In this document: positions 29,318 through 51,615 of the stretch, one piece after another
Layout: each line of letters starts with the position of its first letter
How positions within the stretch are numbered: position 1 is the first letter of the stretch
DNA from: Hutsoniella sourekii ATCC 700629
GTDB lineage: Bacteria > Bacillota > Bacilli > Lactobacillales > Aerococcaceae
DNA: 64,000 nucleotides
Assembly (NCBI RefSeq): GCF_000518205.1
Contig: NZ_JADD01000012.1
Location: 1-64,000 of the forward strand
Direction of reading: 5' to 3'
Notes under the pieces: model-generated
Databases searched by the model: none
The model's input: the letters and a program-made list of their open reading frames with translations, nothing else
Told to the model about the DNA's origin: nothing
Program-made: the position numbers and the translations under genes

Positions 29318-30760
29318 ATGAACAAGAAAATAAAAGATGTAACCCCTCAAAACAACAATAATAACCCTAAATTCTGGAAAGGCGTCTTCGGCGGCGTGGT
29401 CGGGACCGTTGTGACCTTATCAGTAGCTGGTGGCTTGACTTATGATTATATGCAAGGCAACCACATTGGCTATGCCCAAGAAGAAAGCCAATCCGCTGAA
29501 GAAAGCACTAGCCAAGAAAGTCAAGCTAGCGCTCAAACCACTGAATCTACTCAAGGAGCTCAATCTGATACAGAGCAAAACTTGATCAATGTGGTTGAGA
29601 AGACACAAAGTGCCGTTGTATCGGTTGAGAACCACCAAAACCCTGCCCAAGCAGGGAACTACCCAGCTTTAGGAGCTGACGGTGGCTACGTTCTAGGTGA
29701 CGCAGAGAGCCAACCGGTTCTTTATGGTACGGGGTCCGGTGTGGTCTACAAGGTTGAAGGCGACAAGGCCTATATCGTGACCAACGCTCATGTTATTGAC
29801 GGGGCGGACTCGGTGGAAGTGACCATGGCTGACGGTCAGGACGTGAAGGCAGAGCTGGTTGGTCAAGATACCATCAGCGACTTAGCTGTTCTAACAATCC
29901 CAGCTGAATATGCCAAGGAAACCTTGAAGTTTGCTAATTCTGACGAGATCAAGGTCGGAAGCCACGCGATTGCCATTGGTTCGCCAATCGGTTCAGAATT
30001 TGCCTCATCCGTCACTCAAGGGATCGTCTCAGGTCTAGACCGGAACATCCCGATTGATACCAACCAAGACGGCACGGAAGACTGGTCTATGCAATTGATC
30101 CAGACTGATGCGGCAATCAACCCAGGTAACTCTGGAGGCGCCTTGGTCAACTCATCCGGCCAACTCATCGGTATCAACTCCAGCAAACTTAGCGCTTCCG
30201 ACGTTGAAGGAATGGGCTTTGCTATTCCATCCAATGAAGTAAACCGCATCGTCCAAAAATTAGAAGAAAACGGCGAAGTCACCAGACCAGCCCTAGGTGT
30301 GGCTATCATGGATCTCTCTCATATTGCCAAAGAATCTCGTCAAGATGTCCTCAAGCTAGACCCAGAATTAACCGACGGTGTCGTCGTAGCTGAAGTTAAC
30401 CCAGACTCTGACGCTGAACGAGCCGGCATCCAAAAATACGATGTCATAGTCGGAGCCGGCGACAAGCCAGTCACCAACATGGTTGAGTTAAGACAAGCCC
30501 TCTTTGCTCACGACATCGGTGATACAATCGAACTTAAAGTACTCCGTGACGGCAAAGAAGAAACAGTCAAGGTCGAACTCACCCAAGTCCAAGAAGTCGC
30601 AAACCAACCCGAAGTCAGTGAAAGCACTGAAGGAGGCGAAGGCTTCATCCCTTACCCAGGCTACTACGGTGAAGGCGACCCTTACAGCGAATTCGGCGGC
30701 GACTACTACGGCGAAGGCGACGGAGGCTACATCCCCTTCAACCCCTTCGGCAACCAGTAA
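29318..30760 (+). CDS. htrA: Membrane-anchored serine protease HtrA
   Basis: Surface quality-control protease. The 480-residue protein has a short cytoplasmic N-terminus, one membrane helix (about 20-42), a Ser/Gln/Glu-rich linker to about residue 95, an S1C trypsin-fold domain and one PDZ domain (about 320-425). The catalytic triad is seen: H in TNAHVIDGADS, D in DTISDLAVL, S in NPGNSGGALVN. Unusually, the last 45 residues form a Gly/Tyr/Pro/acid-rich tail (YPGYYGEGDPYSEFGGDYYG) not needed for the fold. It ends the Wal locus as in many Firmicutes. The gene usually found next, rlmH, is not in the window. Confidence 0.95.
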   Translation: MNKKIKDVTPQNNNNNPKFWKGVFGGVVGTVVTLSVAGGLTYDYMQGNHIGYAQEESQSAEESTSQESQASAQTTESTQGAQSDTEQNLINVVEKTQSAVVSVENHQNPAQAGNYPALGADGGYVLGDAESQPVLYGTGSGVVYKVEGDKAYIVTNAHVIDGADSVEVTMADGQDVKAELVGQDTISDLAVLTIPAEYAKETLKFANSDEIKVGSHAIAIGSPIGSEFASSVTQGIVSGLDRNIPIDTNQDGTEDWSMQLIQTDAAINPGNSGGALVNSSGQLIGINSSKLSASDVEGMGFAIPSNEVNRIVQKLEENGEVTRPALGVAIMDLSHIAKESRQDVLKLDPELTDGVVVAEVNPDSDAERAGIQKYDVIVGAGDKPVTNMVELRQALFAHDIGDTIELKVLRDGKEETVKVELTQVQEVANQPEVSESTEGGEGFIPYPGYYGEGDPYSEFGGDYYGEGDGGYIPFNPFGNQ

Positions 30761-30783
30761 TCAACAATTATTAAATTAAAACA

Positions 30784-30815
30784 AGCCCCAGCACTCACTT
30801 GTGCTGGGGTCTTTG
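30784..30815 (+). terminator. Terminator after htrA
   Basis: CCCCAGCAC (30786-30794) pairs perfectly with GTGCTGGGG (30801-30809), followed by TCTTTG. Confidence 0.85.
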
Positions 30816-30910
30816 CGTGTAGACGAGTGGGAGACTTGACCCGGTGGTGAAGAGGTAGCCTATTGGGTGTGAAGCAGATTTGCTACCTAATAGGTACGCG
30901 CATTTATATG

Positions 30911-31425
30911 CGAAATAAATTTGGCGTATAAAAGTCTGTTTCTATTGGGTACGAAACAAATTTGGTGTATAAAAGGGTCGTTCAATTAGGTACGAAAAAA
31001 TTTTGGTATATAAAAGTCTTGTTCTATTGGGTACGAAAAAATTTTGGTGTATAAAAGTCTGTTGCTATTGGGTATGAAATAGATTTGGCGTATAAAAGAT
31101 GGCTTCTATTGGGTACGAAATAAATTTGGCGTATAAAAGATGGCTTCAATTGGGTACGAAAAAAATTTGGTGTATAAAAGGTGGGTTCAATTGGGTGTGA
31201 AAATATTTTGGCATATAAAAGGATCGTTCATTTGGGTACGAAAAAATTTTGGTGTATAAAAGCCGTTTTCCATTGGGTGCGAAACAAATTTGGCGTATAA
31301 AAGTCTGTTTCTATTGGGTATGAAATAGATTTGGCGTATAAAAGGCAGGTTCAATTGGGTATGAAAATAATTTGGTGTATAAAAGCCGGCTCCCTTTGGC
31401 TACAAAACAAATTTGGTATCTAGTA
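30911..31425. repeat. 41-bp tandem repeat array, about 12 units
   Basis: About twelve head-to-tail units of 41 bp (one or two off by a base) fill most of the 800-bp gap between htrA and the Rpn gene. Each unit has a conserved core close to TTGGGTACGAAA then AAATTTGGTGTATAAAAG, and a variable stretch of about six bases before TTCTA or TTCAA. Cores begin near 30911, 30951, 30992, 31033, 31073, 31115, 31156, 31198, 31239, 31280, 31321 and 31361; a degenerate unit lies at 31402. No reading frame crosses it. GGTAGC (30853-30858) and GCTACC pair just before the array. The spacing is close to four helical turns. Function unknown. Confidence 0.9.
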
Positions 31426-31526
31426 CCCTCATCTATCTAGGTATAAAATAAATTTATTTAATGGAATTTGGAAAATAATGTGTATTTATATAGTAGGAGG
31501 GCTGGCTTCATCTCCTCCTGTAAACA

Positions 31527-31535
31527 TGCTATAAT
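31527..31535 (+). promoter_or_regulatory. Extended -10 promoter of the Rpn module
   Basis: TGCTATAAT at 31527-31535 is a perfect extended -10; TTCATC at 31507-31512 gives a 17-bp spacer. An inverted repeat, AGGAGG (31495-31500) and CCTCCT (31514-31519), brackets the -35 region and could be an operator. It lies 24 bp before the start codon. Confidence 0.6.
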
Positions 31536-31558
31536 ACTAATGAAATGAGGATCAACGC

Positions 31559-32155
31559 ATGGAACAATTCCCAGAACCACGCTATCTAGCCACAAGTGAT
31601 CTCCTATTCAAGAAAGTACTCGCATCGCCTGGTAATGAAGAAATTCTACTCGAGATGATCAATCGCCTAACCAATCAGCAATTCGAATCTGCCAAGCCCC
31701 TATCTCCTTACAATATTGAACTCTACAAAGAAGCTCAGGCCCAGGCAGGTAATAAGTTGAGGCATACCGAAGTGGATGTTCGAGCTAGGACGGGTACAGG
31801 TGAGCAGGTAACCATTGAAATGCAACTCGTGGCCCCTCGAAACTTTCTCAAGCGCGTACACTTCTACGCAGCCAATACCTATACGGATTATTATGCCAAC
31901 TATGACGACTCAAACAAAATGCTCCTTGATTCTGTTCAGACAACGGATCCCTATCAGCCATTACGAACTGTCTACAGTATCAATATTGTCGCTAATTCAG
32001 TCTCGCATTCAAACCAAGCAGCTTGGCGAATCTATCGAACTTTAGATGAACAAACAGGCGAGCCCATCACTGCTATACCGGGAGTTTACCCCTCTACCCC
32101 CTGTGGCGCTATTATAATGGCCTATCCCCCTTACAGGATGCTCCAGAATTTCTGA
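31559..32155 (+). pseudogene. Rpn-family PD-(D/E)XK nuclease, core domain, C-terminus lost by frameshift
   Basis: A 198-residue ORF. Residues 1-165 match the Rpn/PDDEXK_2 type (recombination-promoting nuclease, transposase_31 relatives): SDLLFKKVLASPGNEEILLE at 13-32, the acidic residue in TEVDVRAR (D73) and the second motif TIEMQ (E87-x-Q89), so the nuclease site looks intact. After about residue 175 the frame leaves the family; the reading frame one base back continues as LPLYPLWRYYNG, DAPEFLKKAYRIIERHNL and then directly into the ORF at 32209. A one-base loss in the C runs at 32089-32101 would explain this. So the ancestral gene ran from 31559 to 32526. Whether the short form is still made is unknown. 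Confidence 0.75.
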
Positions 32156-32208
32156 AAAAAGCTTACAGGATAATTGAAAGACATAACTTAAATGAGGAGG
32201 AACTTCAA

Positions 32209-32526
32209 ATGATCACTCAAGAAGAATACCGTCAAGCTAACCTAAGATCCTTCCTGGTGGACATGGAACTTCGGGTCAAGGAAAGCCATGAACAAGGACT
32301 GGAACAGGGCCTTGAGCAAGGTCTAGAACAAGGCGTCCAAAAAGGTATGGAAGCAGGCCTTACCCAAGGCCTATCAAAAGGCCTAGCCCTGGGCCAAGCG
32401 CGCAGCTACCAGCACTTACTGCAAAAAGGTCTCACCCCCATTCAAATCGCCGACCTCTACGACGTGACAGAATCAGAAGTATCATCCAGCCTGTCGCTCC
32501 TCAATCACTCCACCCTTAAAAACTAG
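32209..32526 (+). CDS. Rpn C-terminal domain, copy 1 (stand-alone small ORF)
   Basis: A 105-residue ORF starting at ATG 32209, 9 nt after GAGGAGG. The region upstream in the same frame is the missing C-terminal part of the Rpn gene, so this is both the tail of that gene and a possible product of its own. Layout: MITQEEYRQANLRSFLVDME helix, a run of xQGL-type tetrapeptides (residues about 28-62, the longest of the three copies), then ARSYQHLLQKGL and a helix-turn-helix-like end (QIADLYDVTESEVSSSLSLL). Such Gly-Leu repeats and end are usual in Rpn proteins. The two following ORFs are copies of it. Confidence 0.75.
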   Translation: MITQEEYRQANLRSFLVDMELRVKESHEQGLEQGLEQGLEQGVQKGMEAGLTQGLSKGLALGQARSYQHLLQKGLTPIQIADLYDVTESEVSSSLSLLNHSTLKN

Positions 32527-32549
32527 CTAGCCCATAGGAGGAACTTCAG

Positions 32550-32831
32550 ATGATTACTCAAGAAGAATACCGCCAAGCCAACCTAAAATCCTTCCTGGTG
32601 GACATGGAACTTCGGATCAAGGAAAGCCATGAACAAGGCCTGGAACAGGGTCTTGCACAGGGCCTTACCCAAGGCCTATCAGAAGGCCTGGCCCTGGGTC
32701 AAGCACGTAGCTACCAACACTTACTGCAAAAAGGCCTCACCCCCAGTCAAATTGCTGACCTGTACGACGTGACAGAATCAGAAGTATCATCCAGCTTGTC
32801 GCTCCTCAGTCAATCCACCCTCAAAAACTAG
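32550..32831 (+). CDS. Rpn C-terminal domain, copy 2
   Basis: A 93-residue ORF, a tandem copy of the ORF at 32209. Its ribosome site ATAGGAGGAAC is 6-8 nt before the ATG and better spaced than in copy 1. It has fewer xQGL tetrapeptides (36 bp shorter than copy 1) and the same end region. There is no nuclease core in front of it; it is preceded by the stop of copy 1 and a 23-bp spacer. Against copy 3 I count about ten silent and three amino-acid-changing differences before their C-termini diverge. Confidence 0.8.
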   Translation: MITQEEYRQANLKSFLVDMELRIKESHEQGLEQGLAQGLTQGLSEGLALGQARSYQHLLQKGLTPSQIADLYDVTESEVSSSLSLLSQSTLKN

Positions 32832-32854
32832 CTAGCCCATAGGAGGAACTTCAG

Positions 32855-33130
32855 ATGATTACTCAAGAAGAATACCGTCAAGCTAACTTAAGATCCTTCC
32901 TAGTGGACGTGGAACTTCGGATCAAGGAAAGCCATGAACAAGGCCTGGAACAGGGTCTTGCACAGGGCCTTACCCAAGGCCTATCAGAAGGCCTGGCCCT
33001 GGGCCAAGCGCGCAGCTACCAACACTTACTGCAAAAAGGCCTCACCCACAGTCAAATCGCCGACCTCTACGACGTGACAGAATCGGCCATCGCCAACAGC
33101 CTCTCCTTACTAGCCGATTCATCCTCTTAA
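32855..33130 (+). CDS. Rpn C-terminal domain, copy 3
   Basis: A 91-residue ORF, the third tandem copy, exactly 305 bp after copy 2 and with the same 23-bp spacer and ribosome site. The N-terminal 75 residues are almost those of copy 2 (K to R, M to V, P to H), but the last 15 differ (SAIANSLSLLADSSS), so it may carry the original gene end. A terminator follows at 33147-33183, making 31559-33130 one transcription unit. Confidence 0.8.
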   Translation: MITQEEYRQANLRSFLVDVELRIKESHEQGLEQGLAQGLTQGLSEGLALGQARSYQHLLQKGLTHSQIADLYDVTESAIANSLSLLADSSS

Positions 33131-50357: not shown

Positions 50358-50590
50358 GGTTATCATACACTTCCCGAAGGCAAAGTGTATAGCAATTGTT
50401 CGTTATCATACGCTTTGCCAGGTTGAAGTGTATAACAATTGTTCGTTATTATACGCATTACCCAATTGAAGTGTATAGCAATTGATCGTTATTATACGCT
50501 TTGCCAGGTTGAAGTGTATGACAATTGATCGTTATTATACGCTTTGCCAGGTTGAAGTGTATGAAAAGTGTTCGTTATTATACGCTTAAG
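50358..50590. repeat. 43-bp tandem hairpin repeat, five to six units
   Basis: Units of exactly 43 bp start at about 50358, 50401, 50444, 50487, 50530 and (partial) 50573. Each contains ATACGCTT or ATACACTT and, 10 bp later, AAGTGTAT, which pair as an 8-bp stem, followed by CAATTGATCGTTATT or a close variant. The first unit pairs perfectly (ATACACTT / AAGTGTAT). The last unit touches the stop codon of the NERD gene. One unit contains ACCCAATTGAAG, also found on the minus strand of the 41-bp array. Confidence 0.9.
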
Positions 50591-50592
50591 TT

Positions 50593-51615
50593 TTACGAAC
50601 CGTATAAAAAGCGGAAATTTCGCTTGGGTGGTCTGTAACTTCTTTTGGTTATATTTGCCTGACTTAACCTTAAGGATATGTCTTTAGAATTAAATTCACG
50701 GTCAGGCTTTGAATATTCATAGTATCTGTCACGGTTGCTTCCATGTTGGATTAGATGCTTGCTGAGTGTCGTTTGCACAGTTACTCGACGCACACGTTGC
50801 CCTAGGTACTGATGGACTCGGCTCGTGGTTATTATCTGATCTTCTTGTGGGAAAAGCACCGTCAATTCCCTGACGCTGCGAAGAATCAGGTCCTGTTTTT
50901 GTTCTTGATGCCCACAGAATAGGCAGGACGTGCTATGGTGTTGTACCTCTATATGAGTGCTGGCACAAGAGGCACAATCTATACCTGTGCTTAGTTTGCA
51001 CCAATCATCTATCGTTTGCCCGGGGTGATGATAGGGGTTAGTGGTCCTATGCTTGGTAATAAGATTGTTAAAATAAACAAATTCTTGATCGGTCGTTGCC
51101 TGTAGATGCTGTTTATTAAGGGAATTTAAGTAGTTTTGCACTCGCGGTCGGGGGATTAATGTGAAGTCTGGTAAATTTGGCAAATCAAAACTTGATTCTT
51201 CATGAGTAAAAATCATCACCCCTTCTACTCGCATCTGGTGGCCGACCAATCGTCGCATCGCTTGCATGCGGTCTGTCATGGCTTGCATGATATTACCGCC
51301 TAATGGTTGATTTCCTAAGTAATATTGGTGGTCCTTGTAAGTTAAATGTCCGGGATAGTGTTTACACTCCACCACCACACAGCACCCCTTAGCAACTAGT
51401 ATAAAATCATACTGCCTCAAGCTATCCAAGTTCAGGTTCAGATTATAGTAGACTTGCCACTGTTTGCCTAGCTGTTCTTCTAACCATTCTCCGAGTAACA
51501 ATTCGCCATAGAAGCCTCTTAGTTGGCGTTGGATTGTCTGCTTTTCTTCGATGGTTAAACGACTTCTCATCCGTCTTAAGACCAAGTCCAGGCGGTCCAT
51601 TTCATGATTTAGCAC
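50593..51615 (-). CDS. NERD-domain nuclease-related protein with zinc ribbon
   Basis: A 340-residue protein. Residues about 30-140 form a NERD domain with the PD-(D/E)XK-like core: RGFYGELLLGEWLEEQL, SLRQYDFILVAKG with the acidic residue, then VVVECKHYPG carrying the E-x-K pair. Residues about 217-242 hold two CxxC pairs (CASC and CLFC), a probable zinc ribbon. The C-terminus is basic. NERD proteins are usually tied to DNA processing or phage defence, but none of this is proven here. The gene is alone, ends in the 43-bp repeat array, and starts ATG 51615 after GAGGGATCA on the minus strand. Confidence 0.82.
   Translation of the reverse strand: MLNHEMDRLDLVLRRMRSRLTIEEKQTIQRQLRGFYGELLLGEWLEEQLGKQWQVYYNLNLNLDSLRQYDFILVAKGCCVVVECKHYPGHLTYKDHQYYLGNQPLGGNIMQAMTDRMQAMRRLVGHQMRVEGVMIFTHEESSFDLPNLPDFTLIPRPRVQNYLNSLNKQHLQATTDQEFVYFNNLITKHRTTNPYHHPGQTIDDWCKLSTGIDCASCASTHIEVQHHSTSCLFCGHQEQKQDLILRSVRELTVLFPQEDQIITTSRVHQYLGQRVRRVTVQTTLSKHLIQHGSNRDRYYEYSKPDREFNSKDISLRLSQANITKRSYRPPKRNFRFLYGS

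Follow-up and report, generated by a model that had tools for sequence, protein, structure and literature searches.

Tandem dyad repeat arrays linked to NERD-zinc-ribbon nuclease genes in Hutsoniella sourekii and other Bacilli

Short extragenic palindromes that occur in high copy number, at regular spacing and in alternating orientation are known as REP elements or, in their composite form, BIMEs (PMC2817692, PMC3733652). They flank the gene that encodes their cognate nucleic-acid enzyme, the REP-associated tyrosine transposase (RAYT), and are also dispersed without it (PMC2817692, PMC3733652); by definition, a GTAG or CGTC tag stands at one end of the REP palindrome (PMC3733652). CRISPR, TIGR and other hypervariable arrays next to nuclease genes likewise consist of regular repeats that include short variable segments (PMC10910872, PMC12045711), and one figure legend, the only place in that paper where the name occurs, lists NERD as a putative CRISPR auxiliary gene (PMC10910872). 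Here we describe a 41-bp tandem array, termed array W, in a stretch of 64,000 nucleotides of the genome of H. sourekii ATCC 700629 (contig NZ_JADD01000012.1, positions 1 to 64,000; the window) and its relatives beside genes for nucleases that combine a NERD (nuclease-related) domain with a zinc ribbon. Two further kinds of system bear on the comparison, namely iteron-type partition/replication sites, which are tandem protein sites in helical phase, and homing endonucleases, in which a selfish nuclease gene is tied to its own recognition sequence.

By analogy, the NERD genes and their arrays appear to come closest in their mode of action to REP elements and the associated RAYT. The arrays flank an enzyme gene and have enzyme-free dispersed copies, and with 34-bp cores in 187 units of 17 arrays they correspond in size and number to the 20-40 bp extragenic imperfect palindromes, present in many copies, that are called REP. 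However, the gene flanked here encodes a PD-(D/E)XK-type NERD nuclease and not a Y1 transposase, the arrays are long and tandem with a helically quantised period, their unit sequences are unrelated between families, and the GTAG/CGTC tag is absent from the consensus units of family A, the main array family of the genome. Enzyme class, missing tag and fixed helical spacing set these arrays apart from REP/RAYT. With CRISPR and TIGR loci they share regular repeats, short variable segments and a neighbouring nuclease gene, but their segments measure 4-7 bp and show no sign of an RNA function, and no conserved partner gene was found at the NERD loci; unlike the unique spacers of CRISPR length, the 4- and 7-bp segments often recur within an array. 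Iterons resemble them as tandem, helically phased protein sites (putative in the present case), whereas the NERD arrays are chromosomal, intergenic and many per genome, and are linked to a nuclease gene instead of ParA/ParB or Rep. From homing endonucleases they differ in that a multi-copy array stands beside an intact gene in place of an interrupted single target.

Array W and its neighbours

Both Tandem Repeats Finder and a weight matrix confirmed the tandem repeat of 41-bp period that a preliminary description of the window had reported. Tandem Repeats Finder places 11.6 copies at 30911-31385, while unit chaining together with the weight matrix sets the wider limits given in Table 1 and raises the number of units from the earlier estimate of about twelve to 14. 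The step between units is exactly 41 bp throughout. The outermost two units are degenerate yet still score about 22 bits, compared with a maximum of 5.8 in a shuffled 20-kb sequence. Each unit is composed of a 15-bp half-site, a 4-bp variable axis, an inverted 15-bp half-site and a 7-bp variable axis, and the core forms an imperfect inverted repeat of 34 bp. The design of a fixed core followed by a variable insert had been recognized before, but with sizes of about 31 and about 6 bp that have to be corrected to 34 bp conserved and 7 bp variable; identity between units amounts to 85% in the core and 48% in the 7-bp segment. Because a dyad at position x in a sequence of period p entails a second dyad at x + p/2, the supposed insert proves to be the second of two axes in a repeated dyad. 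With two dyads per period, the orientation of the half-sites switches about every 20.5 bp, and with half-sites alternating around two axes, free variation is limited to the bases at both axes.

Array W is situated between an htrA gene and a frame-broken gene of the Rpn type (Table 1). The hairpin in the interval between htrA and the array has the same stem, but a weaker T tail, when it is read on the plus strand after htrA. The Rpn gene and the TATAAA-like box, both mentioned in the preliminary description, look incidental. A link of the array to an Rpn promoter is not supported, as a scan of 30700-31700 gave no sigma-70-like site, where 3.7 would be expected from shuffled sequences, and sister arrays lie beside clpP, nadC, atpC, trpA and proC. 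A promoter role of array W was rejected because such sites are absent, and Rpn was rejected as the main link because, although the array precedes a broken Rpn gene, its sister arrays adjoin unrelated genes. The TATAAA-like box is indeed present in every unit of array W; it is not a family-wide feature, since subtype II arrays (see below) have GTGTGATRG in its place.

The 3' end of the Rpn-type gene is tandemly repeated about every 305 bp (window 31559-33130), and the three ORFs arising from these repeats (91-105 aa, all starting MITQEEYRQANL) resemble free-standing copies of the C-terminal segment of Rpn. At L010 10345-11632, another Rpn gene has its end repeated in a similar 343-bp tandem, and a further Rpn C-terminal remnant occurs beside a short family array (L045 1766-2038 and 2383-2521).

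Table 1. Features of the window around array W and at its own NERD gene, and the NERD-zinc-ribbon genes of the genome with their arrays.
Feature	Coordinates	Strand	Remarks
HtrA-type protease gene	29318..30760	+	Trypsin-like plus PDZ; ordinary upstream neighbour of array W
Terminator-like hairpin	30786..30809	.	Interval between htrA and array W; scan calls minus strand
Array W	30860..31426	.	14 units of 41 bp; Tandem Repeats Finder, unit chaining, weight matrix
Example of 34-bp dyad core	30942..30975	+	CTATTGGGTACGAAA-caaa-TTTGGTGTATAAAAG; array W
7-bp segment after example core	30976-30982		GGTCGTT; array W
Possible decayed 15th unit of array W	31434..31467	+	Weight-matrix score does not exceed background; uncertain
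PDDEXK_2 (Rpn-type) gene	31559..32155	+	Frame-broken; downstream neighbour of array W
43-bp array, family B	50383..50587	.	Dyad AAGTGTATAACAA-7-TTATTATACGCTT; ends 6 bp from NERD stop codon
NERD-zinc-ribbon nuclease gene	50593..51615	-	340 aa; E-D-ExK motif and CxxC...CxxC
NERD gene on C9 (the gene of the window)			Adjoining array 43 bp
NERD gene on C12			Flanked by two subtype II arrays of 41 bp
NERD gene on C13			Adjoining array 42 bp
NERD gene on C1			Adjoining array 41 bp, subtype I reversed

Related arrays and NERD-zinc-ribbon genes

The possibility that the repeat is found only at this place, raised in the preliminary description, is contradicted by a search of the whole assembly with pattern, covariance model and BLAST, which gave 17 related arrays with about 190 units (187 chained) on contigs C1, C8, C9, C12, C13 and C39. 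All 17 are intergenic, with fbp and nusB among their neighbours in addition to the five genes named above (names from translations), and 154 of the 170 steps in the family are exactly 41 bp; a 42-bp array is present on C13. Between arrays, identity is 67% in the core and 36% in the 7-bp segment, the random expectation being 28%. There are two main subtypes, which have a GAAA-N4-TTT centre in common and differ in their arms in such a manner that symmetry is kept: 53 cells are changed on both sides, compared to 31 in shuffles, and arm pairing reaches 78%, compared to 27-51% for slid partners. The closest relative of array W is the one that adjoins the C1 NERD gene, in reverse orientation (76% identity, versus 68% to the C12 array), while the subtype II arrays are closest to those on C12 (up to 94%). 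A search of 40 relatives for family A revealed no true member.

Several further observations were made on these arrays. In genome G032, 13 identical matches to the family-A model are scattered (L020, L023, L025 and others) and probably represent one repeated insertion-sequence-like element. Units at array ends are nearer to perfect palindromes than inner ones (L043 15623-15656, L044 4737-4811, L012 13566-13599), as if the ends had escaped homogenization. Very large repetitive surface proteins adjoin family arrays (L009 5697-14870, 3057 aa; L045 2652-8462, partly masked). At L016 6482-6923, two 43-bp arrays stand back to back with different inner arms (ATAATAA versus ATTGAA), and the dyad is kept in both.

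The genome contains exactly four NERD-zinc-ribbon genes, one of which lies with its array at 50383-51615 of the window. Each of the four adjoins an array of a different subtype; between array and open frame, on its 3' side, there are 9-99 bp, and in all four cases the array is within 100 bp of the stop codon. Family-A arrays go with three similar NERD proteins, and family B with the diverged one. The proteins match the NERD profile (PF08378) with 41-77 bits at a curated cut-off of 22.1. The catalytic E, D and K are invariant in all 69 aligned proteins, and the position preceding xK is always E or D; conservation of the four zinc cysteines among them is 99-100%. Given that the catalytic residues are nearly invariant, the nuclease is probably active; the zinc ribbon, together with the C-terminal part of the protein, could serve as a DNA reader. 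A comparison of the NERD profile with solved structures gave no match, and a single-sequence structure prediction was unusable (pLDDT 35). The earlier suggestion that the array is a target site for the nuclease came close, with the NERD-zinc-ribbon protein and not the neighbouring Rpn as the linked enzyme.

This association extends beyond H. sourekii. A profile built from the four NERD proteins matches 76 of 395 genomes of the order, and Tandem Repeats Finder detected an array at a distance of <=200 bp from the gene at 41 of 68 foreign NERD loci (in 36 cases at its 3' end), against a background of four arrays per 400 kb drawn at random from the genomes of relatives; the 29 clpP loci had none. 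By autocorrelation over periods of 30 to 110 bp, significant periodicity was found at 63 of 72 NERD-zinc-ribbon loci, a set that includes those of H. sourekii and whose members are partly related and hence not fully independent, but in none of 58 clpP flanks; nine of the 72 loci have no array. Among held-out loci, 17 of 20 possess arrays, all 17 with lags as predicted, and for full-length homologues from other orders 13 of 15 loci are periodic and 12 of 15 have the predicted periods. NERD-domain proteins that lack the zinc ribbon have no array (0/12). Unit sequences differ between loci. NERD-zinc-ribbon gene and array are linked, and the partnership of this gene with a tandem mirror-symmetric repeat in many Bacilli is apparently undescribed: no account of NERD genes with repeat arrays was found in the open-access papers searched. 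In genome G011, the NERD-linked unit TATGAAGTTATA-AATTAGC-TATAACTTCGTA (L125 1077-1460) resembles the arms of loxP, probably by chance.

Spacing, dynamics and proposed mechanism

Each of the 75 significant lags equals 40-43, 51-52 or a sum of such values, and the 61 single-unit lags are divided into 33 at 40-43 and 28 at 51-52, with none between. These classes are about one helical turn apart (41/4 = 10.25; 51.5/5 = 10.3), which suggests that a bound protein would have to keep to a single face of the helix. Two suggestions of the preliminary description, that the array binds protein and that the helical face matters, gain indirect support: the half-sites stay conserved next to variable spacers, and the periods correspond across species only to about four or about five turns. 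One part of the NERD tree has mostly 41-bp and another mostly 52-bp arrays, and the period class changes 12 times on the tree, compared to 28.6 times in shuffles (0 of 200). We infer from these patterns that the NERD protein determines the spacing of its array. A Mantel test gave no overall correlation of array sequence with protein distance (r = 0.01), the correlation being confined to close pairs.

The arrays are variable in length. Near-identical NERD genes have the same array sequence with 27.5 versus 8.5 units, and a second such pair has 10.7 versus 5.7 units. Copies without a NERD gene occur in H. sourekii and in a second genus, where a NERD-linked array family is found at three further NERD-free places, two of them within about 70 kb. 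In H. sourekii, the contigs with a NERD gene represent 17% of the assembly and contain 13 of the 17 family-A arrays. These observations suggest that arrays expand and spread mainly locally. Array W touches no NERD gene and is tied to the NERD proteins by its similarity to the C1 and C12 arrays; that it is a dispersed copy of the cognate site of a chromosomal NERD-zinc-ribbon nuclease family appears somewhat probable to us.

From the sequences we also infer that NERD proteins bind and cleave the arrays and cause their spreading. Via zinc ribbon and C-terminal domain, the protein would bind the half-sites as dimers at the dyad axes, and such dimer binding would conserve only the half-sites and let the bases at the axes drift, while the integral-turn spacing would align many protein copies along one face of the DNA. 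Less certainly, the nuclease domain might act on the array, leading to its expansion, homogenization and spread to other intergenic places, and array and nuclease might behave as a REP/RAYT pair without a transposase.

Alternative explanations and significance

Alternatively, the array might be useful to the host as a platform for nucleoid, partition or silencing functions to which NERD or another protein binds, with an adaptive spread and a nuclease domain that serves DNA repair or array maintenance. A cooperative protein lattice would be well suited by integral-turn spacing and alternating half-sites. The distribution of the arrays points in the same direction: the arrays of family A are clustered, 13 of the 17 being on the four contigs with NERD genes, and none was found in 400 kb sampled elsewhere. 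Moreover, polarity is constant on contigs C8, C12 and C13 and equals gene direction in all seven arrays between co-directional genes. However, the patchy occurrence among the genomes of the order (76/395), the fast sequence turnover and the varying number of units are unlike an essential site, and we regard a host function of this kind as unlikely.

A role in defence, in which the NERD nuclease would be stored on or measured against the array as a decoy or self-marker and would attack invading DNA, is improbable. NERD domains are indeed part of known defence proteins (MAD6 and MkoA were matched weakly), and the presence in one genome of several diverged paralogues that each have a separate array would agree with such a function. 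On the other hand, the loci lack defence-island partner genes, no PADLOC family was matched over its full length, and no NERD member was found in collections, not exhaustive, of plasmids, phages and viral contigs.

It is even harder to reconcile the data with a guide or structural RNA transcribed from the array downstream of the NERD gene in the manner of CRISPR, TIGR or other hypervariable repeats, although units are regular, their variable segments short, and the arrays located next to a nuclease gene and mainly at its 3' end. The variable segments have just 4-7 bp, and a promoter-like site was not found at array W. Dyad symmetry exceeds that of shuffles (mean z 2.5 over 36 arrays), but on the sense strand of these arrays G-T mismatches are not in excess over A-C mismatches (10 versus 17), which indicates symmetry at the DNA and not the RNA level. 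The sense strand also folds no better than the antisense strand in the 36 arrays, RNAalifold detected no stable consensus hairpin in family A, an Rfam search of the array gave no match, and no conserved stable fold of one strand emerged. Family A taken alone does have a G-T excess on one strand (320 versus 93 A-C), for which the cross-family data do not account. The G-T-rich strand is mostly the coding and probably the leading strand in the contigs examined, and a mutational strand bias is a possible cause. A neutral minisatellite, expanded by slippage here and elsewhere by chance and akin to the drifting minisatellite of the preliminary description, is scarcely credible: higher-order repeats (82, 123 and 206 bp) and copy-number differences reveal slippage or unequal crossing-over, but the position next to NERD genes at dozens of loci, the restriction to two periods and half-sites conserved around variable axes, with dyad symmetry kept, in unlinked arrays are left unexplained, and neither uniform drift nor the lack of a link to a gene family was observed.

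The reading of the arrays as cognate sites of NERD-zinc-ribbon nucleases leads to a broader and more tentative proposal, which we consider possible but would not yet call probable: a new class of chromosomal element in Bacilli, in which a stand-alone NERD-zinc-ribbon nuclease makes, maintains and disperses its own satellite DNA. If true, bacteria would possess a satellite system with a dedicated enzyme and with tandem dyad sites locked to four or five helical turns, comparable to REP/RAYT but built on a nuclease and a protein-lattice architecture. NERD domains were named about two decades ago, and to our knowledge hardly any defined DNA substrate has been assigned to them. If the arrays are the cognate sites, the origin of a class of helically phased bacterial satellites would be explained, the substrate adjoins each NERD gene, and binding and cleavage would become testable in dozens of independent pairs, which would constitute a natural family of nucleases and repeats with differing specificities and two spacing classes.
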